Assembly: GCA_023151185.1 (NCBI GenBank)
Contig: JAKLJL010000005.1
Coordinates: 62,001-126,000 of the forward strand
Reading direction: 5' to 3'
Length of the DNA stretch: 64,000 bases
Source: Bacteroidota bacterium
Lineage (GTDB): Bacteria; Bacteroidota; JABWAT01
Translations under genes and position numbers: made by a program
The notes under the pieces: generated by a model
Database searches by the model: none
What the model was told of the DNA's origin: nothing
Seen by the model: the letters and a program-made list of their open reading frames with translations, nothing else
Shown here: positions 10,842-28,242 of the stretch, piece by piece
How positions within the stretch are numbered: position 1 is the first letter of the stretch
Layout: each line of letters opens with the position of its first letter

Positions 10842-12455
10842 TTGAAAAGTATTTATTTGCTGCGTCACGCACAGGCCGAAAAAGATGAACTTAATTTTTC
10901 TGACCGTGACAGAAGTCTGACGCCAAAAGGTGAAAGTGATTGTAAAAAGGTTCTCATTCAGGCTAAAAAAGCCGGAGTCCTGCCCGGGTTAATCCTGACA
11001 AGTCCTGCACTGCGGTGTACCCAAACGGCTGAACTTGCAGCCGGTATTTTATTTGACTCGACCCCATCCATCCAGATTGCCGAGCCTCTTTACGGAGGTC
11101 AGGAAGTGGATTTGCTTGAACTGATTCAAAAATTGCCAGCCTCTGTTTCCAGGGTTCTGATTGTTGGACACAACCCTGATTTAACCACTGCTGCCGAAGT
11201 GCTTACCGGAAAAATACTGACACCCATCCCCACATCCGGTCTGATTTCCATCGAATTTCAAACAAACAACTGGACAGATTTACCACCGGGAGAAGGAACC
11301 ATCACCATGCTTCAAACACCAAAAATCAAAACAACCCAGGAGTACCAGTCAATTAAAACGGTTCTATCCGAATCAGTTTTGCCTGCACTTAAGGCCCATC
11401 TGGAATCCCTCGATCCCAGAGTCAGGGCACGGGCAGAAAAGGCAATTGACAGTACTTTGGGTAAGCTTGCCAAAAAACTGATAAAAGCTGCAAGGCCTGA
11501 AAAACCTGCTGCGGCTACGGCAAAGGCTAAGAAAACTGCAGCAACCGGATCGGCACCTGCCAGACGTGGCCGGAAGCCGGCCGTAAAACCTGCAGCACCG
11601 GTGGTTTCTTCAGAACCCAAAAAACGTGGCCGTAAACCTGCAGCGGTAAAAGCTGAAACTCCTGTAGTTGCCACAGAACCGAAAAAACGCGGCAGAAAAC
11701 CGGGTGCAGCAAAAGCAGCCAAACCGGCAGCACCGAAAACACCGGGAAAACGTGGCCGTAAACCCGCAGCGGTAAAAGCTGACACTCCTGTAGTTGCCAC
11801 AGAACCGAAAAAACGCGGCAGAAAACCGGGTGCGGTAAAAGCTGCCAAACCGGCAGCACCGAAAGCACCGGGAAAACGTGGCCGTAAACCGGCAGAGAAA
11901 AAAGCTGAAACTCCTGTAGTTGCCACAGAACCGAAAAAACGGGGCAGAAAACCGGGTGCAGCAAAAGCAGCCAAACCGGCAGCACCGAAAGCACCGGGAA
12001 AACGTGGCCGTAAACCTGCAGAGAAAAAAGCTGAGAATCCTGTAGTTGCCACAGAACCGAAAAAACGGGGCAGAAAACCGGGTGCGGTAAAAGCTGCCAA
12101 ACCGGCAGCACCGAAAGCTCCGGGGAAACGTGGCCGTAAACCGGCAGAGAAAAAAGCTGAGAATCCTGTAGTTGCTTCAGAACCGAAAAAACGGGGCAGA
12201 AAGCCTGGGGCAGCAAAAGCAGCCAAACCGGCAGCACCGAAAGCTCCGGGAAAACGTGGCCGTAAACCGGCAGAGAAAAAAGCAGAAGAACCTGCAAAAG
12301 TGACTGCACCGGCCGAAAAAAAAGCAAAGACACCGGTAAAAAGTAAACCGGCAAAAGGGGGAAAAGGCAAAAAAGCCAAACCGGCCAAATCCAAAACACC
12401 GGTAATTCCGAAGGCAGCACCCGAAACGGCACCTGCCCCGGAATCCCAAAGTTAA
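10842..12455 (+). CDS. SixA-like phosphohistidine phosphatase with AT-hook/lysine-rich repeat tail
   Basis: The first ~155 residues are a histidine-phosphatase domain of SixA type: YLLRHAQAEK carries the catalytic RH, LTSPALRCTQTAE follows, and VGHNPDL carries the second His. SixA enzymes remove phosphate from His residues of phosphotransfer proteins. A linker of about 55 residues leads into about 320 residues of Lys/Ala/Pro repeats with twelve RGRKP motifs, close to the AT-hook core RGRP and reminiscent of histone H1-like bacterial proteins. Start is TTG at 10842. The catalytic domain alone would be normal-sized (about 160 residues); the tail triples it. It lies between a receiver protein and ppk1, suggesting phosphorelay and polyphosphate links. 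The tail could bind DNA or polyphosphate. Confidence 0.88.
   Translation: MKSIYLLRHAQAEKDELNFSDRDRSLTPKGESDCKKVLIQAKKAGVLPGLILTSPALRCTQTAELAAGILFDSTPSIQIAEPLYGGQEVDLLELIQKLPASVSRVLIVGHNPDLTTAAEVLTGKILTPIPTSGLISIEFQTNNWTDLPPGEGTITMLQTPKIKTTQEYQSIKTVLSESVLPALKAHLESLDPRVRARAEKAIDSTLGKLAKKLIKAARPEKPAAATAKAKKTAATGSAPARRGRKPAVKPAAPVVSSEPKKRGRKPAAVKAETPVVATEPKKRGRKPGAAKAAKPAAPKTPGKRGRKPAAVKADTPVVATEPKKRGRKPGAVKAAKPAAPKAPGKRGRKPAEKKAETPVVATEPKKRGRKPGAAKAAKPAAPKAPGKRGRKPAEKKAENPVVATEPKKRGRKPGAVKAAKPAAPKAPGKRGRKPAEKKAENPVVASEPKKRGRKPGAAKAAKPAAPKAPGKRGRKPAEKKAEEPAKVTAPAEKKAKTPVKSKPAKGGKGKKAKPAKSKTPVIPKAAPETAPAPESQS
11601..12293 (+). repeat. 126-base in-frame tandem repeat encoding the RGRKP tail
   Basis: Five units begin with the shared word GTAGTTGC at 11664, 11790, 11916, 12042 and 12168, each exactly 126 bases apart (42 codons), preceded by a diverged half-unit from about 11601. 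Units alternate between two versions, GCAGCAAAAGCAGCC and GCGGTAAAAGCTGCC, in the order A-B-A-B-A, so the higher-order period is 252 bases. Each unit encodes two RGRKP motifs. Confidence 0.95.
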
Positions 12456-12546: not shown

Positions 12547-14646
12547 ATGGAAAAGAACCTGAGTTTGTTCAAAGAACGTGAAATCAGCTGGCTTTCTTTT
12601 AACGAGAGGGTCCTGCAGGAAGCCGGTGACCCCACTGTGCCGGTAATTGAACGCCTGAAGTTTCTGGGAATCTTTTCTTCAAATCTGGATGAATTTTTCA
12701 GAGTCCGGGTGGCAGTGCTTAAAAGGATGGTCAACCTCAGTAACCGGTACACCAAAATGGTCGGGAAAAAGCCTGAGGAAGTTCTTGGCGAAATCCAAAG
12801 AATAGTGATCAGTCAGAATAAGCGGTTTGATAAAATATATGAAGAAATTCTGAAGGAACTTGGCAGCCGGAATATTTTTATCATCAATGAAAAACAATTG
12901 ACCGAGACACAGGGCGCACTGGTCAAAACCATTTTCAAACGGGATATTCAGCCGGCATTGGTTCCGATTATGATCGACGGAATAGCCGAATTCCCGTATC
13001 TGAAAGATAAATCCATTTATCTGGCGGTTGTTTTAAAAAATAAAAAGGCGAAATCAAAAACGAAATATGCCCTGATTGAAATCCCGACACAAATATCCAG
13101 GTTTGTGGTTCTGCCAGAATTTAACGGGAAACAATTTATCATTTTAATTGATGATGTAATCCGGTATTGTCTGAAAGATATTTTTTTCATTTTTAAATTT
13201 GACGAAATCGCTGCCTATACCATTAAAATGACCCGTGATGCAGAACTGGATCTGGACAACGATGCAGTCATCAGCTACATAGAAAAACTTTCAAAAGGAG
13301 TTAAAAAACGCCAGAAGGGGAACCTCGTCAGGTTTATTTATGATGCTTCCATTCCGGATGAATTGCTGTCCTATATTTTTAAACGCCTTCACCTGACAAA
13401 GAAGGATAATGTCATTGCCGGCGGCCGGTACCATAATTTCAAGGATTTCATCCGGTTCCCGAAAGTGGGTACTTCCGATATGCGGTATGCTCTTCCTGAA
13501 CCGCTTACCCATCCGGCACTGCCACATGGCACCAGCCTTTTTGATCAGATCAAAAAGAAAGATATTCTGCTTCACTACCCGTACCAGTCTTTCGATCATA
13601 TTCTGGACCTGCTCAGAGAAGCCGCCATTGATCCGAACGTCAGATCAATTAAAATGACCCTGTACCGGGTTGCCGATAAGTCGAATGTGGTCAATACCCT
13701 GATCAACGCTGTCAAGAACGGAAAATCAGTGACGGTTGTGATGGAGCTTCAGGCAAGATTTGATGAGGAAGCCAATATTTTCTGGTCGAATAAACTTGTT
13801 GAAGAAGGCGCCCGGGTTATTCACGGATTCAGAAGTACCGAAGCGGATCTGCGTGAAAACCAATATAAGGTCCATTCCAAGCTATGCCTGATTACCCGGA
13901 ATGAGGGCAGGAAAGTGGTTCGGTATGCCAATATCTCAACCGGTAATTTTAATGAAGATACCGCCCGGTTGTACTGCGATGACAGTCTTCTGACCGCCAA
14001 TGATGAGATCACCGACGAAGTAGCCAAGGTCTTCGACTCATTTGAAGATCACGTCAAAATTTCAAAAAACCGGTATAAACACCTGCTTGTTTCGCCCTAC
14101 AACATGCGGTCCCGGCTTGAAAAACTGATCTGGACGGAAATTGAAAACCACGAAGAAGGAAAACAGGCCTGGATTACCCTGAAGGTCAATAATCTGGTCG
14201 ACAAGGAAATGGTTTCCCTTTTAAAGGATGCGGTCTCGAGAGGAGTTCCCACCCGCCTGATCATCAGGGGAACCTGCTCCCTCGTTCTGCCGGATGACCG
14301 GGAAACTAAAAATTTTCAGGCCATCAGTCTGGTCGACAAATATCTCGAACACAGCCGTGTTTATGCCTTTTGCAATGGCGGTGACCCGAAATACTTTCTG
14401 ACTTCTGCTGATATGATGACCCGGAATCTGGATCAGAGAATTGAAGTTGCCTGCCCGGTTTACGACCCCGATTTACAGAAGGAACTTGCAAAAATTCTGG
14501 AAATTCAGCTTCACGACAATGTGAAAGCCCGGCTGATTGACAAACACCAGTGCAACCAGTACAGAAAAGGCTCCAAAAACGCAAAAACGGTCAGGGCACA
14601 GGACGAGATCTACTCTTATCTGGCATCAAGGAGACAATCTGACTGA
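12547..14646 (+). CDS. ppk1: polyphosphate kinase 1
   Basis: Reversibly polymerises ATP gamma-phosphate into polyphosphate. 699 residues, the normal PPK1 size. It begins NLSLFKEREISWLSFNERVL, followed by the N-terminal FFRVR-type segment (SNLDEFFRVRVAVLK). The C-terminal phospholipase-D-like domains include VHSKLCLI with the autophosphorylated His and ISTGNFNEDTARLYCD, and later DMMTRNLDQRIEVACPV. It follows the SixA-like gene and its terminator on the same strand, and ends two bases before the stop of a convergent 30-residue membrane protein. Confidence 0.97.
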   Translation: MEKNLSLFKEREISWLSFNERVLQEAGDPTVPVIERLKFLGIFSSNLDEFFRVRVAVLKRMVNLSNRYTKMVGKKPEEVLGEIQRIVISQNKRFDKIYEEILKELGSRNIFIINEKQLTETQGALVKTIFKRDIQPALVPIMIDGIAEFPYLKDKSIYLAVVLKNKKAKSKTKYALIEIPTQISRFVVLPEFNGKQFIILIDDVIRYCLKDIFFIFKFDEIAAYTIKMTRDAELDLDNDAVISYIEKLSKGVKKRQKGNLVRFIYDASIPDELLSYIFKRLHLTKKDNVIAGGRYHNFKDFIRFPKVGTSDMRYALPEPLTHPALPHGTSLFDQIKKKDILLHYPYQSFDHILDLLREAAIDPNVRSIKMTLYRVADKSNVVNTLINAVKNGKSVTVVMELQARFDEEANIFWSNKLVEEGARVIHGFRSTEADLRENQYKVHSKLCLITRNEGRKVVRYANISTGNFNEDTARLYCDDSLLTANDEITDEVAKVFDSFEDHVKISKNRYKHLLVSPYNMRSRLEKLIWTEIENHEEGKQAWITLKVNNLVDKEMVSLLKDAVSRGVPTRLIIRGTCSLVLPDDRETKNFQAISLVDKYLEHSRVYAFCNGGDPKYFLTSADMMTRNLDQRIEVACPVYDPDLQKELAKILEIQLHDNVKARLIDKHQCNQYRKGSKNAKTVRAQDEIYSYLASRRQSD

Positions 14647-18448: not shown

Positions 18449-19504
18449 ATGACCGGACAGGCCTCCCGACCCAAACTGCTTTTAATCTGCGGATCACTGC
18501 ATCAGACAATTCAGATGCACCTGATATCAAAAGAACTGCCCGGATTTGACTGCTATTTTACCCCGCATTATGCCGACGGCTTTACCGAACTGATCAGAAA
18601 ACTGCGGTGGACAGAAATGTCGGTTCTTGGCCGGAAACATTATGACCGGTGCATGAACTATCTTGAAAAACACGGGCTTGAGGCAGATTACCGGGGTGAA
18701 AAATATTCCTACGATCTGGTCATTACCTGTTCGGATATGGTGATACAGAAAAACATCCGGGATAAAAAAATAGTGGTGGTTCAGGAAGGGATGACCGATC
18801 CGGATGAGTTCTGGTATTACGTTGTTCTTCTGATTCCCACCCTTCCCCGCTGGGCTGCCAGCACAGCAATGACCGGGATGAGTAATATGTACGACCGGTT
18901 CTGTGCGGCAAGTGAAGGGTACAAGTCCCATTTTGTATCCCGGGGTGCTGATCCCGCCCGGATAGCAGTGACCGGGATTCCCAATTTTGACAATGCAGGA
19001 AAATTCCGGAAAAATGAATTCCCCTACCGGAATTTTGTTCTGGTTTGTACTTCAGATTCCCGTGAAACTCTGAAAATCGAAAACCGTGCTGCCTTTATCC
19101 GGAAATGTGTCCTGATTGCTGGGGGACGGCAACTGATTTTTAAACTGCATCCGAACGAAAACTTCCGGAGGTCCATCCGGGAAATTACCCGGCTTGCTCC
19201 CGGCGCAATTATTTACACCTCGGGCAGTGCAGAAGAAATGATCGCCAATTGCGATGTTCTGATTACCCAGTGGTCATCGGTCGTTTATGTTGGCCTGGCA
19301 CTTGGCAAGGAAGTTTATTCCAATTTTGATCTGGAAGATTTGAAACGGAAGCTCCCGGTTCAGAACAATTCTGCTGCCCGGAATATTGCAGAGGTGATCA
19401 GAGAAGTGCATGAGGATCCGGCTGTTATCAATCCGAAGAAATTGAATAACCGGCTTTTTTACTACCGCAGGTTTTTAAACCTCTTTAAGAAGGCAGCCAA
19501 ATGA
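18449..19504 (+). CDS. GT-B fold glycosyltransferase, candidate CMP-sugar transferase
   Basis: 351 residues. The second half has KLHPNENF (an HP motif) and TQWSSVVYVGLALGKEV (an SS motif), plus VVQEGMTDPDE containing an acidic-Gly motif. The HP and S/T-S pair is shared by GT-B sialyltransferases and Kdo transferases and by CDP-glycerol transferase-like proteins. It opens the sugar-acid cluster and its TGA overlaps the ATG of the SpsF-type cytidylyltransferase (ATGA), so the two are translationally coupled. I infer transfer of the CMP-activated product made by the downstream genes. A CDP-glycerol glycerophosphotransferase-like role is the main alternative. Confidence 0.65.
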   Translation: MTGQASRPKLLLICGSLHQTIQMHLISKELPGFDCYFTPHYADGFTELIRKLRWTEMSVLGRKHYDRCMNYLEKHGLEADYRGEKYSYDLVITCSDMVIQKNIRDKKIVVVQEGMTDPDEFWYYVVLLIPTLPRWAASTAMTGMSNMYDRFCAASEGYKSHFVSRGADPARIAVTGIPNFDNAGKFRKNEFPYRNFVLVCTSDSRETLKIENRAAFIRKCVLIAGGRQLIFKLHPNENFRRSIREITRLAPGAIIYTSGSAEEMIANCDVLITQWSSVVYVGLALGKEVYSNFDLEDLKRKLPVQNNSAARNIAEVIREVHEDPAVINPKKLNNRLFYYRRFLNLFKKAAK

Positions 19505-20301
19505 AAATTCTGATCATTGTGCAGGCCAGAACAGGATCTTCCCGGCTGCCGGGTAAAATTCTGATGCCGCTGGCCGGGAAGCCGGCTCTCCAGAGACAAA
19601 TTGAACGGATTCAGGCTGTTCAGACCCCGGCAGACCTGATTGTTGCCACCACAACTGACCCGTCTGATGAACCCGTCAGGGAATTGTGCAAAAAACTCGG
19701 GGTTTCCTGTTTTTCGGGACACCCGACAGACCTTCTCGACCGGCATTACCAGGCGGCACGGAACCTGGCTCCGGAAGCCGTTGTCAAAATCCCGTCTGAC
19801 TGCCCGCTGATCGACCCGGCTATAATTGATGAAATATTCAGGTTTTTCCTCTACACGGCGGGTGAATTTGATTATGTCAGCAACCTGCATCCGGCGACCT
19901 GGCCTGATGGAAATGATGTTGAAATTATGACGTTTCAGGCACTCGAAACCGCCTGGAAGGAAGCCGAACGCAGCTTTGAACGGGAGCATTGCACACCCTT
20001 TATCTGGGAAAACCCTGACCGGTTCCGTATCGGAAACGTTATCTGGAATTCAGGCCGGGATTATTCAATGACTCACCGGTTTACCCTTGACTATCCTGAA
20101 GATTACGCCTTCATCCGGGCGGTCTATGATGAACTTTGCTGGCCGGGATCAGAACTGTTCGGACTTGAAAAGATTCTGGAATTATTGTCCGGAAAACCAG
20201 ACATTTACCAGTTGAACCAGGCGTATGCCGGAGTAAACTGGTACCGGAATCACCTGACAGAATTAAGGACGATCCGGCCGGATCAAACCAGAACGAACTA
20301 A
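19501..20301 (+). CDS. SpsF-type cytidylyltransferase (CMP-sugar synthetase-like)
   Basis: 266 residues of the acylneuraminate cytidylyltransferase superfamily. The nucleotide-binding N-terminus IIVQARTGSSRLPGKIL is diagnostic, followed by ADLIVATTTDPSDEP, KIPSDCPLIDPAIIDE with metal-binding Asp, and HPATWPDGNDVEIM. It probably activates the sugar acid made by the NeuB homologue as its CMP derivative in the cytoplasm. It overlaps the glycosyltransferase upstream, and the transketolase N-subunit starts 11 bases after its stop. Confidence 0.85.
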   Translation: MKILIIVQARTGSSRLPGKILMPLAGKPALQRQIERIQAVQTPADLIVATTTDPSDEPVRELCKKLGVSCFSGHPTDLLDRHYQAARNLAPEAVVKIPSDCPLIDPAIIDEIFRFFLYTAGEFDYVSNLHPATWPDGNDVEIMTFQALETAWKEAERSFEREHCTPFIWENPDRFRIGNVIWNSGRDYSMTHRFTLDYPEDYAFIRAVYDELCWPGSELFGLEKILELLSGKPDIYQLNQAYAGVNWYRNHLTELRTIRPDQTRTN

Positions 20302-20312
20302 TTTTACTCAAA

Positions 20313-21170
20313 ATGACACCAGAAATCCAACAACACCTGAATTCCCTTGCACTCTCAGTGAGAGAACATATCATCCGGATGGCGACAAACGGCGGCTGCT
20401 TTATTGGTGCCTCATTGTCCTGTGCTGACCTGCTGGTTTACCTGTATGATCAGGTTCTTTCTGTTTCACCTGACCGAATTTCGGATCCGGACCGGGATTA
20501 TCTCCTGCTATCAAAAGGACATGACGTTCCGGCCCTGTACGGAACACTTGCCGAAAAGGGATTTTTCTCAGCCGACCGTCTGAAAAACCATCTTCACACT
20601 ACGGATTCAATTTACTGGCATCCGAACCGGAACGTTCCGGGAATTGAATTTCATTCGGGTTCATTGGGACATTTGATTTCCGTTGCAGCCGGCATTGCCC
20701 ACGACATTAAAATCAGGGATGGAAAAAACAAGGTTTACGTCATTCTGGGTGACGGGGAACTGAACGAAGGTTCTGTCTGGGAAGCCTGCCTGGTTGCTGC
20801 AACACAGAAACTGGATAATCTGGTGGTGATTGTTGACCGGAATGAATTTCAGGCGAACGTCCGGACGGAGGAACTTCAGCCGCTGGAACCCATCGGGCCC
20901 AAATTCTCGGCTTTCGGATGGTCAGTCAGACGGATCAATGGACATGATTTTGATGAACTGGAATCCGGATTTTCCCAGCTTCCCGCAGAAAAAGACCGCC
21001 CGACTGTCATCATTGCAGATACCGTCCGGGGAAAAGGACTTCCGTCCATCGAAAAACGGGCTGACCGGTGGTTCGTCAATTTTTCACATGAAGAAGTTGA
21101 GCAGTTGCTGAAAGAACTTCACGGGGAACACAAAACAGTTCTCACTTCCGAGACATTAATGGTGAGGTAG
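20313..21170 (+). CDS. transketolase, N-terminal (TPP-binding) subunit
   Basis: 285 residues, equal to the N-terminal half of transketolase. Key features are LLLSKGHDVPALYG, FHSGSLGHLISVAAGIA, and the thiamine diphosphate Mg2+ motif GDGELNEGSVWEACLVAA ending with VVIVDRNEF. Split transketolases consist of this and a C-terminal subunit, found here at 22486. They form heteromers that move a two-carbon ketol unit between sugars. Here the partner is separated by an aldo/keto reductase and a repeat tract. Location in a NeuB-type cluster points to building a sugar precursor rather than the pentose phosphate pathway. Confidence 0.93.
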   Translation: MTPEIQQHLNSLALSVREHIIRMATNGGCFIGASLSCADLLVYLYDQVLSVSPDRISDPDRDYLLLSKGHDVPALYGTLAEKGFFSADRLKNHLHTTDSIYWHPNRNVPGIEFHSGSLGHLISVAAGIAHDIKIRDGKNKVYVILGDGELNEGSVWEACLVAATQKLDNLVVIVDRNEFQANVRTEELQPLEPIGPKFSAFGWSVRRINGHDFDELESGFSQLPAEKDRPTVIIADTVRGKGLPSIEKRADRWFVNFSHEEVEQLLKELHGEHKTVLTSETLMVR

Positions 21171-21177
21171 GGGAGGA

Positions 21178-21396
21178 AGAAGACAGGAGACAGAAGTCAG
21201 AAGACAGAAGACAGGAGGTGGTTCCGGTGGCTGAGGCTCTCGAAGCCACGAGGAGGCATCCGGACAATTCGGGACCCTCTGTGTCCGGAACGCGGTCAAA
21301 GGATTGTGGCTGGAACGCAGAAGACAGAAGGCAGGAGTCAGAAGACAGAAGACAGGAGTCAGAAGACAGGAGTCAGAAGGAAGAAGACAGAAGACA
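21178..21396 (+). repeat. AGAAGACAGAAGTCAG-type short tandem repeat tract
   Basis: Two blocks (21178-21217 and 21320-21396) of degenerate units AGAAGTC / AGAAGACAGA / ACAGGAGTC. They surround a 100-base core holding two hairpins. Reverse-complement copies occur after the aldo/keto reductase (22453-22479) and after the transketolase C-subunit (23483-23513). Repeats of this composition are known to me from intergenic regions of other FCB-group genomes; that is recall, not a search. The tract keeps a frame open and falsely extends the reductase upstream to 21306. Confidence 0.85.
21227..21288. repeat. two REP-like hairpins inside the repeat tract
   Basis: GTGGCT (21227-21232) pairs with AGCCAC (21244-21249) around GAGGCTCTCGA. 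CCGGACA (21260-21266) pairs with TGTCCGG (21282-21288). The first resembles the widespread GGCTGAGCCTGTCGAAGCC intergenic repeat, from memory. They may be mobile REP-like units. Confidence 0.55.
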
Positions 21397-21449
21397 GTTT
21401 TATAAATTCCGGATTTTTTACAGATTTAAAATTAAAAAAAGAACTTATC

Positions 21450-22433
21450 ATGCAAACACGGTTTCTGGGACAATTAAAAACATCTGCTTTGGGTTTGGGC
21501 TGTATGGGAATGTCTGAATTTTACGGCGCCACCGATGACAAGGAATCCGTTGCGACCATCCACAGAGCACTTGAACTTGGCGTCACTCTATTCGATACAT
21601 CGGATATGTACGGTCCGTTCATCAACGAAGAACTGGTTGGCCGGGCAATCAAATCCAACCGTGAAAAAGTTGTTCTTGCAACCAAATTCGGAATCGTCAG
21701 AGATCCTGCCAATCCGGGAATCAGAAGCATCAGCGGACGGCCGGACTATGTAAAATCTGCCTGTGAAGCCAGTCTCCGCCGTCTGGGCGTTGATACCATC
21801 GATCTGTACTATGTTCACCGGATTGATCCAACGACACCAATCGAAGAAACGGTCGGGGCCATGAGCCGGCTGGTTGAAGAAGGAAAAATCAGATTTCTGG
21901 GACTTTCTGAAGCCGGAATTCCAACCATCAGACGGGCACACAAAACTCATCCGATATCAGCACTTCAGACCGAATACTCTCTCTGGTCACGGGATCCGGA
22001 AGATGATCTGCTTTCGGTCTGCAAAGAACTGGGAATCGGATTTGTGGCTTACAGTCCGCTCGGCAGAGGATTTCTGACCGGACAAATCAAATCTGTGGAT
22101 GATCTCGCAGAAAACGATTTCCGCCGGTATTCTCCCCGTTTTCAGGGAGAAAATTTCCAGAAAAATCTGGACATGGTAAAACGGGTTACCGACATGGCGG
22201 CTTCAAAAGGATGCACGCCATCACAACTGGCTTTGGCCTGGGTGCTGGCTCAGAGTGAAACCATCGTTCCCATCCCCGGAACCAAAAGGCGGACGTATCT
22301 GGAGGATAATTGCGGAGCCGTGAATCTGACGTTAACACCGCAGGATCTCCGGCATCTTGATGAAGTAGCTCCGAAAGGTGTTGCCGCCGGAAACCGGTAT
22401 CCGGATGCTGCCATGAAATCCCTAAATCTGTAA
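21450..22433 (+). CDS. aldo/keto reductase
   Basis: 327 residues from ATG at 21450; translation upstream is repeat-derived. It is an NADPH-dependent (beta/alpha)8 reductase of the YakC/IolS-like group. The tetrad is visible: Asp and Tyr in [11 protein letters not shown], Lys in VVLATKFG, His in [15 protein letters not shown]. The NADPH loop is [17 protein letters not shown]. AKRs of this type are general detoxifying reductases with no special link to sugar acids. It lies between the two halves of a split transketolase, flanked by repeats in inverted orientation, which looks like a later insertion. Confidence 0.93.
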
Positions 22434-22452
22434 TTTATATTCTAACTGCTGG

Positions 22453-22479
22453 CTTCTGTCTTCTTACTTCTAACTTCTT
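22453..22479 (-). repeat. inverted copy of the AGAAGACAG repeat
   Basis: On the plus strand CTTCTGTCTTCTTACTTC followed by TAACTTCTT, the reverse complement of the upstream tract. It ends six bases before the transketolase C-subunit ATG, so it replaces the ribosome binding site region; no AGGAGG is seen. Confidence 0.75.
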
Positions 22480-22485
22480 AAAACA

Positions 22486-23475
22486 ATGACTTACGAAGAA
22501 ATTTTATACGATTTTGTTCAGAAAGATGACCGGCTGATCGTGATGACGGCTGAAAACCGGGCGGCAATCCGGAACCTGCCCCCCAAACTGGGAAAACGGT
22601 TTATGGATGCTGGAATCTGTGAGCAAACCATGATCGGAATGGCGGCCGGACTTGCTCTCAGAGGCCGGATTCCCGTCGTTCATGCTTTGGCGACATTTCT
22701 GACATTGCGGGCTTTCGAGTTCATCCGTACTGACGTTGGAATCGGGAAACTGCCGGTTATTCTGGTTGGCGGAGTTCCGGGTTTTCTTTCTGACGGAAAC
22801 GGACCCACTCATCAGGCGATTGAAGATGTTGCCATCCTGCGGGGAATCCCGGGCATGCAGGTTTTTTGTCCGTCTGATGCTGAAGAACTTGCTGCAGGCA
22901 TGCCGGCAATTCTGGAATCGGGCAGACCCTGTTACATCCGGTATTATGCAGGTCCGGCTCCGGTGAAACATACCGCACCTTTTGAACTGGGAAAAGCAGA
23001 AATTCTCGGTAAAGGATCGGATATCACCCTGATGACGTACGGATTTCTGCTGAAGGAAGCCGTCAAAGCTCAGGCGATTCTGGAAAGGAAAGGATATTCA
23101 GTCGGACTGATCAATATGAGAATGCTGGCGGATGCCGATAAGGCCGCCATCATTTCAGCAGGAAAATCAACGAAACTGACGGTTACCATTGAAGATCATT
23201 TTCAAACCGGCGGGTTGTATTCCATCGTCTCTGAAGCCTACATGGAATATCTCTACGAAAACGACTGGGGATTTTCTTCCACCGAAATTATCCGGGATAA
23301 TCCGCCGTTTAAATACAATTATCAGGAAGATTTCCGGCTGGCGAAGGTATTTCCGGTTGCCCTGAATCAGAAATGGTTTAAACCGGCACTGCTCGACCGG
23401 GTGCTTGATTATGAAGGCTTCACCGGAGAAAAACTGGCAGAACGGATCGAAACAGAATTCTTAAAAATCAGGTAA
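22486..23475 (+). CDS. transketolase, C-terminal (pyrimidine-binding) subunit
   Basis: 329 residues, matching the pyrimidine-binding and C-terminal domains of transketolase. RFMDAGICEQTMIGMAAGLA carries the Glu that contacts the thiamine pyrimidine. GPTHQAIEDVAILRGIPGM is the conserved substrate-binding segment. The last third is the transketolase C domain (ITLMTYGFLLKEA, TVTIEDHFQTGGLYS). It partners with the N-subunit at 20313 despite the intervening reductase. The start lies directly after a repeat copy, with no good binding site, so expression may have been altered by the insertion. Confidence 0.92.
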   Translation: MTYEEILYDFVQKDDRLIVMTAENRAAIRNLPPKLGKRFMDAGICEQTMIGMAAGLALRGRIPVVHALATFLTLRAFEFIRTDVGIGKLPVILVGGVPGFLSDGNGPTHQAIEDVAILRGIPGMQVFCPSDAEELAAGMPAILESGRPCYIRYYAGPAPVKHTAPFELGKAEILGKGSDITLMTYGFLLKEAVKAQAILERKGYSVGLINMRMLADADKAAIISAGKSTKLTVTIEDHFQTGGLYSIVSEAYMEYLYENDWGFSSTEIIRDNPPFKYNYQEDFRLAKVFPVALNQKWFKPALLDRVLDYEGFTGEKLAERIETEFLKIR

Positions 23476-23482
23476 CAACAAA

Positions 23483-23513
23483 CTGACTTCTGACTCCTGT
23501 CTTCTGATTTCTA
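23483..23513 (-). repeat. third copy of the short repeat, between transketolase C and aminotransferase
   Basis: Plus strand CTGACTTCTGACTCCTGT then CTTCTGATTTCTA, same orientation as the copy at 22453. Located in a 77-base gap. Confidence 0.75.
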
Positions 23514-23552
23514 ATTCAATAGTCAAAAATTAAAAATTTAAACTTACCAAAC

Positions 23553-24890
23553 ATGCCCAACACCGTTTCTTTCAATCCGTCCTATCCTGTAATAACCGAA
23601 TCGGATAAACTTTACCACCGGGCAACCGGACTCATTCCTGCCCTTACCCAAACGCTGGCAAAAGGTCCGCAGCAGTACGTTAAGGGAGTTGCTCCCAAAT
23701 ATCTCAAAAAAGGAAAAGGCTCCCACGTCTGGGATGTTGACGGAAATGAATTTATCGATTACCAGATGGGAATCGGACCGCTTTCACTGGGTTATTCCTA
23801 CGACGTGGTTGATGAAGCGATAAAGGGACAACTGAATGACGGCATCACCTTTTCTCAGATGCATCCGCTGGAAGTTCAGGTTGCCGAACTCATCCGGGAA
23901 GTGGTGCCGAATGCAGAAATGGTCCGTTACAGCAAAACCGGTTGTGATGTCACCTCTGCTGCCATCCGGGTTGCACGGGCTTACACGGGAAAGAATAAAG
24001 TTTTGTGCTGCGGTTATCATGGCTGGCATGATTGGTACATTTCCGTCACCGACCGGAATATGGGAATTCCCCAATCCATTCAGGATATGACCTTCACGTT
24101 TAATTACAATGATATTCAGTCGGTCCTCGATTCCATTGACGACGACACCGCCTGCATCATTCTCGAACCCATCGTTTTCGAGGCACCGAAAGATAATTTC
24201 CTGCAGAAACTCCGTGATCTGTGTGATCAGCACAACATCCTGCTCATTTTTGATGAAATGTGGACGGGGTTCCGTCTCGCCATTGGCGGTGCTCAGGAGT
24301 ATTTTGGTGTAAATGCTGATCTGGCCTGTTTTTCCAAAGCCGTGGCGAACGGAATGCCCGTTTCCATGCTGACAGGAAAAGCGGAATACATGAAGTTGCT
24401 GGAAAAGGATATTTTCTTTTTTACTACCTTTGGAGGGGAAGCACTGTCTCTTGCTGCGGCAAAAGCGACAATAAATGAACTCCGTGCCCATAATGTACCT
24501 GATTATCTGGCAAAGCAGGGAAAAAAACTGCGTGAAGGATACAATTCAATTGCTTCTGATTTGGGGATGGAGTACACCAAATGTACAGGATTTGACGTCA
24601 GAACGATTGTTACGTTTGATGCAACCGCCGGAAATCCGCTTGAAATGAAAAGTTTGGTTCAGCAGGAGCTTATCAAACGGGGAATTCTCTGGGGCGGATT
24701 TCACAACATGTCGTTTTCACATACCGATTCTGACATTGAGTACACCCTGAAAGCCTACCGGGACGTGTTGTCTATTCTAAAAAAAGCTGTTGATGAAAAA
24801 AATGTTTCAGGTTACCTGAAAGGTGAACCAGTCGGACCTGTTTTCAGAAAAACATCCAATTTCAATATGAAACCGAAAGTGAAATCCTGA
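23553..24890 (+). CDS. class III aminotransferase (glutamate-1-semialdehyde aminomutase-like)
   Basis: 445 residues, PLP-dependent fold type I. Motifs: VWDVDGNEFIDYQMGIGPLS at the N-terminus, CGYHGWHDWY, LIFDEMWTGFRLAIGGAQ with the cofactor Asp, and CFSKAVANGMP with PLP-binding Lys262. It then has FFTTFGGEALSLAAAKA. It resembles GSA aminomutase, but location between transketolase and an SDR in a NeuB cluster suggests it aminates a keto-sugar intermediate. It is two bases from the SDR start, so tightly coupled. A true heme-pathway HemL role is unlikely by context. Confidence 0.85.
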   Translation: MPNTVSFNPSYPVITESDKLYHRATGLIPALTQTLAKGPQQYVKGVAPKYLKKGKGSHVWDVDGNEFIDYQMGIGPLSLGYSYDVVDEAIKGQLNDGITFSQMHPLEVQVAELIREVVPNAEMVRYSKTGCDVTSAAIRVARAYTGKNKVLCCGYHGWHDWYISVTDRNMGIPQSIQDMTFTFNYNDIQSVLDSIDDDTACIILEPIVFEAPKDNFLQKLRDLCDQHNILLIFDEMWTGFRLAIGGAQEYFGVNADLACFSKAVANGMPVSMLTGKAEYMKLLEKDIFFFTTFGGEALSLAAAKATINELRAHNVPDYLAKQGKKLREGYNSIASDLGMEYTKCTGFDVRTIVTFDATAGNPLEMKSLVQQELIKRGILWGGFHNMSFSHTDSDIEYTLKAYRDVLSILKKAVDEKNVSGYLKGEPVGPVFRKTSNFNMKPKVKS

Positions 24891-24891
24891 T

Positions 24892-25701
24892 ATGTCTGAG
24901 TCTCTTTTTTCACTTAACGGAAAAGTAGCTGTTGTGACCGGGGCACTGGGTCTCATCGGGCGAGAACATTGCAAAGCACTGGCAGAAGCCGGGGCTCATG
25001 TTGTTGTTGCCGATCTGGATGACAGATCCTGCCGGTTATTTGCTGCTGAACTTTCACCTGAGTCAGTCGGAATTGCCGTCAATATTACCGATAAGGAATC
25101 TGTCATCCGGTTAAAGGATAAAACTCTGGATACTTTTGGCAGGATAGATATTCTGGTGAACAATGCTGCCATCAATGATCAGTTTGAAAATCCGAAAACC
25201 ACCGCCGACCTGTCCAGGTTTGAAAACTACCCGGTAGATCTTTTCCGGAAATCCCTTGATGTAAATGTGACCGGAACGTTTCTTTGCAGTCAGATTCTGG
25301 GTACAGAAATGGCCAAACAGGGAAAAGGCTCCATTATCAACATTGCATCTACTTACGGCATGAACGGACCCGATCAATCTATTTACGTCCGGCCGGATGA
25401 CAGCCAGCCCTTTTTTAAACCACCGGCATATACAGCTTCTAAAGGGGCAGTGATTGCGTTTACCCGGTTTCTTTCCGCATATTGGGGCAAATCGGGTGTC
25501 CGTGTCAATACTTTGACACCTGGTGGCGTTGAAAACGGTCAGGATGAGTATTTCATCGGGAATTATTCAAAAAAAACCCAGCTTGGCCGAATGGCTTCAC
25601 CAACCGATTACCGGGGTGCCATTGTTTTTCTTGCCTCAGATGCTTCTTCCTATATGACAGGTGCCAATCTGGTTGTCGACGGCGGCTGGACGGCATGGTA
25701 A
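24892..25701 (+). CDS. short-chain dehydrogenase/reductase
   Basis: 269 residues, classical SDR. The NAD(P)-binding motif is VVTGALGLIGREH, followed by ILVNNAAINDQ, the catalytic Ser in INIASTYGMNG, and YTASKGAVIAFTRF containing the catalytic Tyr and Lys. The C-terminus FLASDASSYMTGANLVVDGG is typical. An insertion with proline and aromatic residues sits between Ser and Tyr (about residues 160-180). It probably reduces or oxidises an intermediate in the sugar-acid pathway. Start is one base after the aminotransferase stop. Confidence 0.92.
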   Translation: MSESLFSLNGKVAVVTGALGLIGREHCKALAEAGAHVVVADLDDRSCRLFAAELSPESVGIAVNITDKESVIRLKDKTLDTFGRIDILVNNAAINDQFENPKTTADLSRFENYPVDLFRKSLDVNVTGTFLCSQILGTEMAKQGKGSIINIASTYGMNGPDQSIYVRPDDSQPFFKPPAYTASKGAVIAFTRFLSAYWGKSGVRVNTLTPGGVENGQDEYFIGNYSKKTQLGRMASPTDYRGAIVFLASDASSYMTGANLVVDGGWTAW

Positions 25702-25726
25702 AAGAACAAATGTCAGATAAAAGGAA

Positions 25727-25795
25727 AAGGCCGGACATGGAATCACGGGTTTCGGGAACCTGCCCGTAACCGCAACCAAATTTGGCCCCGGCCTT
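25727..25795. other. long-range inverted repeat / structured intergenic element
   Basis: AAGGCCGG (25727-25734) pairs with CCGGCCTT (25788-25795) enclosing 53 bases. Inside are ACGGG (25745-25749) with CCCGT (25763-25767), an overlapping GGTT/AACC hairpin, and the palindrome CCAAATTTGG. It lies between the SDR and the phosphatase. It may be an RNA element, an attenuator or a small mobile repeat. It is not a tRNA: no T-loop or anticodon stem pattern. Confidence 0.4.
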
Positions 25796-25830
25796 ATGAA
25801 AAATAATCATCTTTACAAATCTGGAAACTG

Positions 25831-26346
25831 ATGATAAAGCTAAGTGAAACAGAACTGAAACTACGTGCAGGAAGAATCAAACTGGTTCTGACGGATAATG
25901 ACGGCGTCCTGACGGATACCGGTGTTTATTATTCTGACCAGGGTGAGGTCATGAAGCGGTTTTCCATCCGTGACGGAATGGGTGTTGAACGGTTGGGTAA
26001 TTGCGGAATTCAGACTGCGATTATAACCGGCGAACTTTCAGGTTCGGTGAAAAAAAGAGCCGAAAAACTGAAGATGAAGTTTCTTTATCTGGGTGTAAAA
26101 GATAAAGCCGCCATGCTGCCTTCCATCCTGAAGGAAACCGGATGTGACCTGTCTGAAGTGGCCTACATCGGGGATGATGTGAATGATGTGGATATTATCA
26201 GGCTGATTTCACCGGGCGGGCTGACCGCATGCCCGGCAGATGCCATGCCCGTGATAAAGCCACTGGTTCACTATCACTGCCAGTTTCCGGGCGGGAACGG
26301 GGCCTTCCGGGATTTTGCAGAATGGCTGATCGGATTAAGAGGATAG
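25831..26346 (+). CDS. KdsC-type HAD phosphatase
   Basis: 171 residues, the tetrameric cap-less HAD phosphatase size. Motif I is VLTDNDGVLTD with both Asp, motif II ITGELSG, then the Lys in GVKDKAAML and motif IV AYIGDDVNDVDII. KdsC-like enzymes dephosphorylate 3-deoxy-octulosonate 8-phosphate or nonulosonate 9-phosphate. In this cluster it likely acts after NeuB. Both flanking gaps hold inverted repeats. Confidence 0.9.
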   Translation: MIKLSETELKLRAGRIKLVLTDNDGVLTDTGVYYSDQGEVMKRFSIRDGMGVERLGNCGIQTAIITGELSGSVKKRAEKLKMKFLYLGVKDKAAMLPSILKETGCDLSEVAYIGDDVNDVDIIRLISPGGLTACPADAMPVIKPLVHYHCQFPGGNGAFRDFAEWLIGLRG

Positions 26347-26362
26347 AAAACAATTTCAAAGC

Positions 26363-26391
26363 TTCCCTCCTTTAAAAAATGAGGGAATTTT
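26363..26391 (+). terminator. probable Rho-independent terminator after the phosphatase
   Basis: TTCCCTC, 11-base loop, GAGGGAA followed by TTTT. The stem is 7 bases with modest GC. It implies neuB has its own promoter. Confidence 0.5.
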
Positions 26392-26459
26392 CGCTTATCA
26401 CTTTGTAATTTATACTTCTATATCATAGTCCCTTGCCGCTGAAATATAGGTGTGTGCAG

Positions 26460-26478
26460 AGGGTTAACGGTAAACCCT
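26460..26478 (+). promoter_or_regulatory. hairpin in the neuB 5' leader
   Basis: AGGGTT, 7-base loop, AACCCT, 25 bases upstream of the neuB ATG. It could influence translation; no riboswitch class is recognised. Confidence 0.3.
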
Positions 26479-26503
26479 TAACTCAAAGCAAATCGGAGAT
26501 TAC

Positions 26504-27400
26504 ATGAAAAAGGCTGAAATCAAAATCGGAAACAGATGGGTTGGGGATGGCCATCCGGTTTTTGTCATTGCCGAAATCGGGATCAATCACAATGGCTCTC
26601 TGGATATTGCCAGAAAACTGATTGAAGGAGCAAAGGCTGCCGGGTGCGACGCTGTAAAGTTCCAGAAGAGAACGCCAGAAGTCTGCGTTCCGAAGGATCA
26701 GCGGGATATCCTGAGAGATACACCCTGGGGCCGGATGACCTACATGGACTACCGGTACAAAGTTGAATTCGGGTTGGAAGACTATGCAGAGATTGACCGG
26801 ATCTCCAGGAAAAACAACATTTTATGGTTTGCCTCCTGCTGGGATGAGGAATCGGTTGAGTTTATGGAGCAGTTTGATACTCCCCTTTACAAATCGGCTT
26901 CAGCGTCACTAACCGACCACGACCTTCTGAAAAAGAAAAAGGCGACCGGAAAGCCGCTCATGATTTCGACAGGGATGTCCACCCATCAGGAAATAACCGA
27001 TGCCATCGACTGCCTGGGTCTGGATAACCTGCTGATTGCCCATGCAACATCAACCTATCCGTGTCCGCCGGAAGAATTGAACCTCAGAATGATCCACACG
27101 CTTAAAAACCTCTATCCTTCTGTACCGATCGGGTATTCAGGGCATGAAACCGGGCTTGCCCCCACCTGGGCTGCTGTTGCACTTGGGGCAACCTTTGTTG
27201 AACGCCATATTACCCTCGATCGGGCGATGTGGGGAAGTGATCAGGCTGCCTCTGTTGAACCTGCCGGATTTGCCCGCCTGGTCAGCAACATCCGCGATAT
27301 TGAAGCTTCTCTGGGTGACGGAATTAAACAGGTCTATCCGTCAGAAATGGGTCAGTTGAACAAACTAAGGCGGGTGAAACCCGGAATTCTGAATTCCTGA
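26504..27400 (+). CDS. neuB: NeuB-family sugar-acid synthase lacking the SAF domain
   Basis: 298 residues. PEP-dependent condensing enzyme of the sialic acid/legionaminic acid synthase family. The TIM barrel motifs are clear: VIAEIGINHNGSLDIARKLI, CDAVKFQKR, MISTGMST, IGYSGHETGLAP and FVERHITLDR with the metal-binding His. Typical NeuB proteins are about 335-350 residues with a C-terminal antifreeze-like SAF domain; this one stops right after the barrel, so its active site may be completed differently. ATG follows a GGAGAT-containing leader. It is the last cluster gene and probably has its own promoter. Confidence 0.92.
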   Translation: MKKAEIKIGNRWVGDGHPVFVIAEIGINHNGSLDIARKLIEGAKAAGCDAVKFQKRTPEVCVPKDQRDILRDTPWGRMTYMDYRYKVEFGLEDYAEIDRISRKNNILWFASCWDEESVEFMEQFDTPLYKSASASLTDHDLLKKKKATGKPLMISTGMSTHQEITDAIDCLGLDNLLIAHATSTYPCPPEELNLRMIHTLKNLYPSVPIGYSGHETGLAPTWAAVALGATFVERHITLDRAMWGSDQAASVEPAGFARLVSNIRDIEASLGDGIKQVYPSEMGQLNKLRRVKPGILNS

Positions 27401-27477: not shown

Positions 27478-28242
27478 ATGGATTCCCTTCAACTGACCTC
27501 ACTCCTCTTTCTTATTGCTGCCGGTCTCCTTTTTATCGGGTTGGAACGGTTTTACCCTTATTCTCCCGGACAAAAATTCTTCAGGAAAGGCTTTTTTACT
27601 GATTTTTTCCTGTATGCACTCCTTCAGTCGTGGGTTCTGGGGATGCTGATATTCTGGCTGATTCAGTGGGTGGATTCCGGCACAGGGCTTTCCAGATACC
27701 GGTTGGTCTCAGACTGGCCGGTCTGGGTTCAGTTGCTCTTTTTTGTCGTCCTGCATGATTTTTACATATACTGGTTTCACCGGTGGATGCATCACTCTCC
27801 GGTTCTCTGGCGCCTCCATGAGGCCCACCACTCACCGAAGGAAGTTGACTGGATTGCCGGCATGAGAAGCCACTCACTTGAAATCTGTATCAACCAGACC
27901 ATTGAGTTTGCGCCGATGGTTTTACTGGGTGCTGCACCCGAAGTGGCAGTGCTGAAAGGTACGGTCAGTGGCGTCTGGGGAATGTGGATCCACGCCAATA
28001 TTAATGTTCAGTCCGGTTTTCTGCACTATCTCATTAACGGACCTGAAATGCACCGGTGGCATCATGCGGCAGAAATCACCCGGGGCGGGCTGAACTATGC
28101 CACCAAATTTGCCTTTTGGGACTGGATGTTTAAAACCGCCTGGCTGCCCGGAACCCAGAAGCCGGCTGCCTATGGACTGGCCGACGTTGACTTTCCGGAC
28201 AATTACGTGAAACAGCATTTGTTTGCTTTCCGTAAATTCTGA
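27478..28242 (+). CDS. fatty acid hydroxylase / sterol desaturase family membrane protein
   Basis: 254 residues with about four membrane helices. The three histidine clusters of the diiron family are present: HDFYIYWFHRWMHH, HEAHHSPKEVDW and MHRWHHAAE. Such enzymes hydroxylate or desaturate lipids at the membrane. Substrate is unknown; carotenoid, sterol and fatty acyl members share these motifs. It starts 77 bases after neuB and 39 bases before a LysE exporter. Confidence 0.9.
   Translation: MDSLQLTSLLFLIAAGLLFIGLERFYPYSPGQKFFRKGFFTDFFLYALLQSWVLGMLIFWLIQWVDSGTGLSRYRLVSDWPVWVQLLFFVVLHDFYIYWFHRWMHHSPVLWRLHEAHHSPKEVDWIAGMRSHSLEICINQTIEFAPMVLLGAAPEVAVLKGTVSGVWGMWIHANINVQSGFLHYLINGPEMHRWHHAAEITRGGLNYATKFAFWDWMFKTAWLPGTQKPAAYGLADVDFPDNYVKQHLFAFRKF

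Follow-up and report, generated by a model that had tools for sequence, protein, structure and literature searches.

What does the gene cluster at positions 18449-27400 of this 64,000-nucleotide stretch of Bacteroidota DNA (the window) synthesize, and in what order do its enzymes act? The initial annotation noted a transketolase split over 2 genes and proposed that a ketose built by this enzyme is aminated and reduced before a NeuB homologue extends it with phosphoenolpyruvate (PEP). We think it fairly probable that the operon makes and transfers an amino-ulosonate activated with cytidine monophosphate (CMP), and that its enzymes act in a different order: NeuB and KdsC, then a short-chain dehydrogenase/reductase (SDR) with the aminotransferase, then SpsF, and finally a GT-B-fold protein. 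Gene content, conservation, co-occurrence, gene replacement and residue changes were observed, and from them we infer step order, substrates, backbone length and acceptor. The genes concerned are as follows.

18449..19504, + strand: GT-B-fold protein, probable transferase using CMP-ulosonate; no family above cut-off in profile searches, AlphaFold model at pLDDT 87
19501..20301, + strand: SpsF-type cytidylyltransferase, putative CMP-ulosonate synthetase; PF02348 (CTP_transf_3), 95.8 bits
20313..21170, + strand: transketolase N-terminal subunit, H26 changed to F; PF00456, best PDB match 6yak
21450..22433 (open reading frame, ORF, listed from 21306), + strand: aldo/keto reductase, inserted and probably outside the pathway; PF00248
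22486..23475, + strand: transketolase C-terminal subunit, with E411 and H473 conserved but H461 and D469 changed; PF02779 and PF02780
23553..24890, + strand: class III aminotransferase, like glutamate-1-semialdehyde (GSA) aminomutase, proposed functional equivalent of KdnA; PF00202, K262 invariant
24892..25701, + strand: SDR dehydrogenase, proposed functional equivalent of KdnB; SDR family, with Ser153, Tyr180 and Lys184 invariant
25831..26346, + strand: KdsC-type phosphatase of the haloacid dehalogenase (HAD) type; TIGR01670, 122 against a cut-off of 107; NF058599, 154.2 against 180
26504..27400, + strand: NeuB-family synthase without SAF domain; PF03102, 249 bits, no PF08666
27478..28242, + strand: FA_hydroxylase-family membrane protein, distantly OlsE-like; PF04116; NF052566, 103.5 bits against a cut-off of 475

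All genes named in the initial annotation were found in place on the + strand, and profile searches confirmed the families of all but the GT-B protein; 2 genes, for the aldo/keto reductase (21450-22433) and the FA_hydroxylase-family protein (27478-28242), were absent from it. We scanned GTDB genomes with an alignment of the aminotransferase, obtained at least 533 relatives, and fetched the best 80 loci for comparison, which came from Ignavibacteria, Kapabacteria, Chlorobiota, Chitinophagales, Myxococcota and the gammaproteobacterium Methyloglobulus morosus. Presence or absence of the transketolase was scored at 70 loci, co-occurrence was counted over 61 genomes (the window's own and 60 others), and a first comparison set held 11 genomes of the same phylum.

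The order of steps is best judged from the distribution of the genes. The SAF-less NeuB and the GT-B protein had identical distributions (25 of 61 genomes), and close homologues of the aminotransferase, SpsF and the SDR were found in exactly the same 12 genomes, with more distant matches in a few others. NeuB and GT-B were present in those 12 genomes as well as in 13 others, which all belong to one family, f8, and lack the SDR, the class III aminotransferase and SpsF. From their placement in the tree, the f8 genomes are probably those of green sulfur bacteria, Chlorobiaceae. The 6 f8 loci that we read for NeuB (L142-L146, L150) held a KdsC-NeuB pair and no other cluster genes, and the 6 read for the GT-B gene held an operon with the order flippase-like gene, GT-B, CMP-synthetase, iron-dependent alcohol dehydrogenase (Fe-ADH) and DegT aminotransferase. 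The best PDB match of this DegT enzyme was KdnA, the 8-amino-3,8-dideoxy-manno-octulosonate transaminase (5k8b), at 277 bits versus 161 for the next. The window aminotransferase, a class III enzyme (PF00202), has no meaningful similarity to it. The flippase-like gene also lies upstream of GT-B at 12 cluster loci, which links the 2 operon types. In a NeuB phylogeny, the f8 NeuBs nested inside the cluster NeuBs, as sister to full-set relatives and beside Chloroherpetonaceae.

As judged by these comparisons, NeuB, KdsC and the GT-B protein stay the same, while for the dehydrogenase, the aminotransferase and the CMP-synthetase alike another enzyme of equivalent type, unrelated or distant, appears to have been swapped in. 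The simplest account of such exchange is that the SDR and aminotransferase act after NeuB and KdsC. Amination before NeuB, as first proposed, fits poorly with the finding of the same NeuB in 13 f8 genomes that have no such aminotransferase, SDR or SpsF, and with the KdnA-type aminotransferase and Fe-ADH that accompany the GT-B gene instead at the 6 f8 loci read for it.

The earlier order deserves closer consideration nonetheless. By that account, the transketolase would build or trim a ketose, the aminotransferase would aminate it, the SDR would reduce it, and the resulting amino-aldose phosphate would be the acceptor for NeuB, much as in the synthesis of aminoDAHP (amino-3-deoxy-arabino-heptulosonate 7-phosphate). 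The transketolase pair does lie directly upstream of the aminotransferase gene at 50 of 70 loci, and its sugar site is specialised in every homologue. The pair is a two-chain thiamine pyrophosphate (TPP) enzyme whose nearest solved structure is the split transketolase of Carboxydothermus hydrogenoformans (6yaj, 6yak), with which it shares the two-chain architecture, the TPP motif, E411 and H473, and from which it differs in that H26, H461 and D469 are replaced in the cluster homologues. The alignment, in the numbering of E. coli TktA, held 52 N chains, of which one has a gap at H26, and 56 C chains, counting those of the window. The TPP-binding motif, E411 and H473 were conserved in all of them, and every homologue with a residue at the position had H26 changed to F, H461 to V, F or I, and D469 to N; the roles of these 5 residues in transketolases are well established. 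The genome's other split transketolase retains H, H and D at the 3 changed positions. In the H261 region, where automatic alignment was ambiguous, reading by eye gave WFV for the cluster enzyme versus WHG for the other copy. By its residues, then, the cluster transketolase is a specialised enzyme with an altered sugar site, as the initial annotation had suspected. The possibility that the pair is the genome's only transketolase and serves central metabolism was rejected, since the second split copy exists and has canonical residues.

However, the transketolase is not a constant partner of NeuB and SpsF. It was cleanly absent from 20 of 70 loci that retain the other genes, including those for the aminotransferase, SDR, KdsC and NeuB, and its gain and loss on the aminotransferase tree required 8 changes, at least 5 of them forced by well-supported branches. 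The operon of Methyloglobulus morosus (L055) is one that has no transketolase. Relocation does not account for the absence in 15 transketolase-less genomes, which contained no cluster-type copy elsewhere, only housekeeping-type copies of about 28 to 42% identity. The transketolase is an optional accessory TPP enzyme of the pathway. These findings, and the retention of NeuB without the aminotransferase and SDR in the 13 f8 genomes, are at variance with a transketolase product that feeds NeuB, and we consider the earlier order unlikely. Among the papers searched, none of relevance linked transketolase to nonulosonic acid, to NeuB or to legionaminic acid. In the order that we prefer, the pair would be an accessory enzyme with a changed sugar site. 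There is a slim chance that it extends an SDR-made ulosonate aldehyde by 2 carbons and that the aminotransferase then aminates the resulting ketone, which would give an amino-ulosonate of 10 or more carbons, with transketolase-less genomes making a shorter terminal amine.

The pathway that we propose would begin with the SAF-less NeuB, which would join PEP to an ordinary aldose phosphate. Mannose 6-phosphate is the leading candidate, and the product would then be the 9-phosphate of ketodeoxynonulosonic acid (KDN). The cluster NeuBs are too short to hold a SAF domain (PF08666), a lack on which the initial annotation was silent; the domain is present in other NeuBs of the phylum, in the second NeuB of the same genome and in the NeuBs of 2 distant loci, L172 and L173. 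Residues E24, K52, K130, H214 and H235 are invariant between the cluster NeuBs and the SAF-bearing ones, so the window enzyme is expected to condense PEP. The earlier assignment of the cluster to a CMP-activated ulosonate pathway that lacks a nucleoside diphosphate (NDP)-sugar dehydratase and a 2-epimerase for UDP-N-acetylglucosamine (UDP-GlcNAc) was supported. No dehydratase for NDP-N-acetylhexosamine (NDP-HexNAc) was found among the cluster genes, and the 12 GDP_Man_Dehyd-family matches elsewhere in the genome were assigned at family level. The 2-epimerase family, PF02350, had no match above cut-off genome-wide, the GT-B gene alone giving 18.8 bits versus a cut-off of 30.6. The further deduction that a missing dehydratase or epimerase calls for a transketolase-built substrate did not hold, since the published KDN route, in which mannose 6-phosphate and PEP give KDN-9-phosphate, needs neither enzyme (PMC6200933).

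KdsC would then dephosphorylate the NeuB product. Next, the SDR would oxidise one hydroxyl group of the dephosphorylated ulosonate, and the most plausible site is the terminal hydroxyl that KdsC exposes. The class III aminotransferase would transaminate the carbonyl so made. The nearest solved relatives of the aminotransferase are GSA aminomutases, and its pyridoxal phosphate (PLP) lysine, K262, is invariant in the alignment. Together, these 2 enzymes would fill the role of KdnB and KdnA in the synthesis of Kdo8N (8-amino-3,8-dideoxy-manno-octulosonate). KdnB and KdnA work on a finished ulosonate, and many class III aminotransferases prefer terminal carbonyls; the parallel and the preference are the grounds on which we would place the amino group at the terminal position. 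Kdo8N synthesis starts with KdnB, an Fe-ADH that works as the partner of KdnA (PMC5125639). SpsF would then activate the amino-ulosonate with cytidine triphosphate, and the GT-B protein would transfer it, probably onto lipid or a lipopolysaccharide (LPS) core.

The last of these steps depends on the identity of the GT-B protein. Its AlphaFold model has a GT-B fold, and the HP motif and Ser276 are invariant in 30 homologues, in agreement with the fold and the HP and SS motifs first reported; an epimerase would also fit these features. Indeed, the protein might be a NeuC-like 2-epimerase for UDP-HexNAc that feeds NeuB in an unusual pathway of the sialic acid type, with the SDR and aminotransferase decorating the product. 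Foldseek matches of the model put UDP-GlcNAc 2-epimerases first (1v4v, E 1.6e-10), with a CMP-dependent polymerase, TagF and a polysialyltransferase close behind, and the weak PF02350 match and the exact co-occurrence with NeuB point the same way. Yet that match is below the Pfam cut-off, and the sole PDB match of the GT-B profile below 1e-3 is a TagF-like transferase/polymerase, reached through the SS region. In a low-confidence alignment, the WecB segment TGHRRES pairs with TSDSRET in the GT-B protein, with loss of the catalytic His. A CMP-synthetase gene is located near the GT-B gene in both operon types, and the SAF domain, found in NeuBs that act on N-acylated substrates, is missing from the cluster NeuB. 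On this evidence an epimerase is improbable, and the protein is probably a transferase that uses a CMP-ulosonate. We saw no flippase-polymerase set of the O-antigen kind around the cluster, and lipid-type neighbours recur (the FA_hydroxylase-family gene and, in relatives, the flippase-like gene). Together these favour lipid or LPS core over a polymer as the probable acceptor.

Several observations weigh against the pathway as we have drawn it. The structural matches of the GT-B model are, as stated, led by 2-epimerases. The f8 Fe-ADH matches KdnB (5k8c) at 59.6 bits, and other Fe-ADHs score higher. The f8 NeuB could have kept its fold and switched substrate. The pathway offers no explanation for a transketolase that is conserved immediately before the aminotransferase gene at 50 of 70 loci. 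Finally, the best model for the window KdsC is KDN-9-phosphate phosphatase (NF058599), yet its score is below the cut-off, and a nine-carbon backbone is a leading guess only. A plain KDN pathway, with NeuB, KdsC, SpsF and GT-B for the synthesis and transfer of KDN and the SDR, aminotransferase and transketolase devoted to another sugar in the same glycan, would suit that phosphatase model and the retention in f8 of NeuB, KdsC and GT-B without the SDR, aminotransferase and SpsF, but is very doubtful given the low KdsC score, the more canonical KDN-type set elsewhere in the genome, and the dehydrogenase and KdnA-type aminotransferase within the f8 GT-B operon itself, by which amination accompanies the pathway in both lineages. 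The more canonical set (L037, on C21 of the same genome, 13841-17059, downstream of ABC transporter genes) consists of a NeuB-cytidylyltransferase fusion, a SAF-bearing NeuB and a phosphatase that scores 245.5 bits to NF058599, well above the cut-off, and is likely a separate KDN-type pathway. Replacement of Kdo (3-deoxy-manno-octulosonate) by the cluster product was also considered and rejected, since the same genome has KdsA above cut-off (C11) and a Kdo transferase (C3).

The amino-ulosonate pathway proposed here was compared with characterised systems. The Kdo8N pathway of Shewanella (KdnB, 3-deoxy-manno-octulosonate 8-oxidase, and KdnA, the transaminase) likewise uses a dehydrogenase and a PLP aminotransferase in the service of an ulosonate pathway, and is linked to the cluster through the f8 relatives, which have a KdnA-type enzyme in the GT-B operon. 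It differs in enzyme families, the window having an SDR in place of the KdnB Fe-ADH and a class III aminotransferase in place of the KdnA DegT enzyme, and in that the window ulosonate would come from a NeuB-family synthase, not KdsA. The KDN pathway of Bacteroides thetaiotaomicron and Prymnesium parvum (mannose 6-phosphate to KDN-9-phosphate, KDN and CMP-KDN; PMC6200933) has, like the window, a NeuB-family synthase, a phosphatase and a CMP-synthetase and no NDP-sugar dehydratase or epimerase; in contrast, the window NeuB is SAF-less, its phosphatase is below the KDN-9-phosphatase cut-off, and the SDR, aminotransferase and transketolase are extra. Resemblance to the legionaminic acid pathway (PtmA, PtmE, PtmF) is seen in the L173 operon, which holds an SDR of 39% identity, a class III aminotransferase of 33% identity and an SpsF-type enzyme, whereas the window cluster has no counterpart of that operon's dehydratase, LegC-type, 2-epimerase, acetyltransferase, PtmE-type or PtmF-type genes. 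More generally, the SAF-bearing NeuB of the N-acetylneuraminic (Neu5Ac), legionaminic and pseudaminic acid pathways, the 2-epimerase of the first 2 and the NDP-HexNAc dehydratase of the last 2 have no counterparts in the cluster. Distant SpsF-aminotransferase-SDR trios were seen at L173 8281-11145, inside the legionaminic-type operon, and at L172 8634-12616, where a SAF-bearing NeuB follows.

The cluster represents an uncharacterised ulosonate module common to hundreds of environmental genomes, and one in which a transketolase, its substrate site rebuilt in a consistent way, occurs in a sugar-acid biosynthesis setting. We propose as a rule that an SDR and a class III aminotransferase can substitute for KdnB and KdnA. 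If this is true, a NeuB that lacks SAF and has no dehydratase or epimerase genes with it would indicate an amino-ulosonate or KDN-type pathway, not sialic acid. The sugar of a Chlorobium aminoglycosphingolipid is said to be neuraminic acid, and 9-amino-KDN would be an isomer of it. As a lead only, and provided that f8 is Chlorobiaceae, we regard the module as a candidate source of the sugar of that lipid (Jensen et al. 1991, as cited in PMC11762602). Among the papers searched, nothing was found on neuraminic acid in Chlorobium limicola.

Gene order is far more conserved than chance across about 80 loci, and in the 11 same-phylum genomes the order GT-B, SpsF, transketolase N and C, aminotransferase, SDR, KdsC, NeuB, FA_hydroxylase was mostly or fully kept. 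The operon is spread across the phylum and occurs also in Myxococcota and Methyloglobulus. The FA_hydroxylase-family gene is beside NeuB in most relatives and present at 60 relative loci; by ORF clustering around the 80 loci, no other neighbour was as widespread, the next being a metallophosphoesterase gene (21 loci). KdsC was missing beside the SDR and NeuB genes at 14 of 45 transketolase-bearing loci versus none of 19 transketolase-less ones (Fisher p 0.006, kinship ignored). In Chloroherpetonaceae-like genomes (L070; L028 with L149), the set is split into a GT-B-to-aminotransferase group and an SDR-KdsC-NeuB group. Second copies of the SAF-less NeuB without the remaining cluster were seen at L147 9310-10206 and L148 9179-10078, near a metallophosphoesterase resembling that of the 21 operon loci.

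The aldo/keto reductase ORF (21306-22433; probable start 21450) separates the 2 transketolase genes. Neither in the 11 relatives first examined nor in the wider comparison of about 80 loci was this gene found at the same position, and on that ground we rejected it as a pathway member. The part of the ORF upstream of 21450, an N-terminal extension, is encoded by heptanucleotide tandem repeats (consensus CAGAAGA). Such repeats occur at 21178-21214 and 21318-21397 on the + strand and at 22449-22471 and 23490-23512 on the - strand; they bracket the aldo/keto reductase gene and also precede the aminotransferase gene, and a scan allowing 2 mismatches found no others in the window. Two genomes of the same genus have shorter heptanucleotide repeats between the transketolase genes, in the same opposed orientation. 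Elsewhere in the window, ORF 10842-12455, which lies next to a polyphosphate kinase-like gene at 12547, encodes, as read by eye, an N-terminus resembling the phosphohistidine phosphatase SixA and, beyond it, AT-hook-like KRGRKP motifs in a 126-base tandem repeat array.

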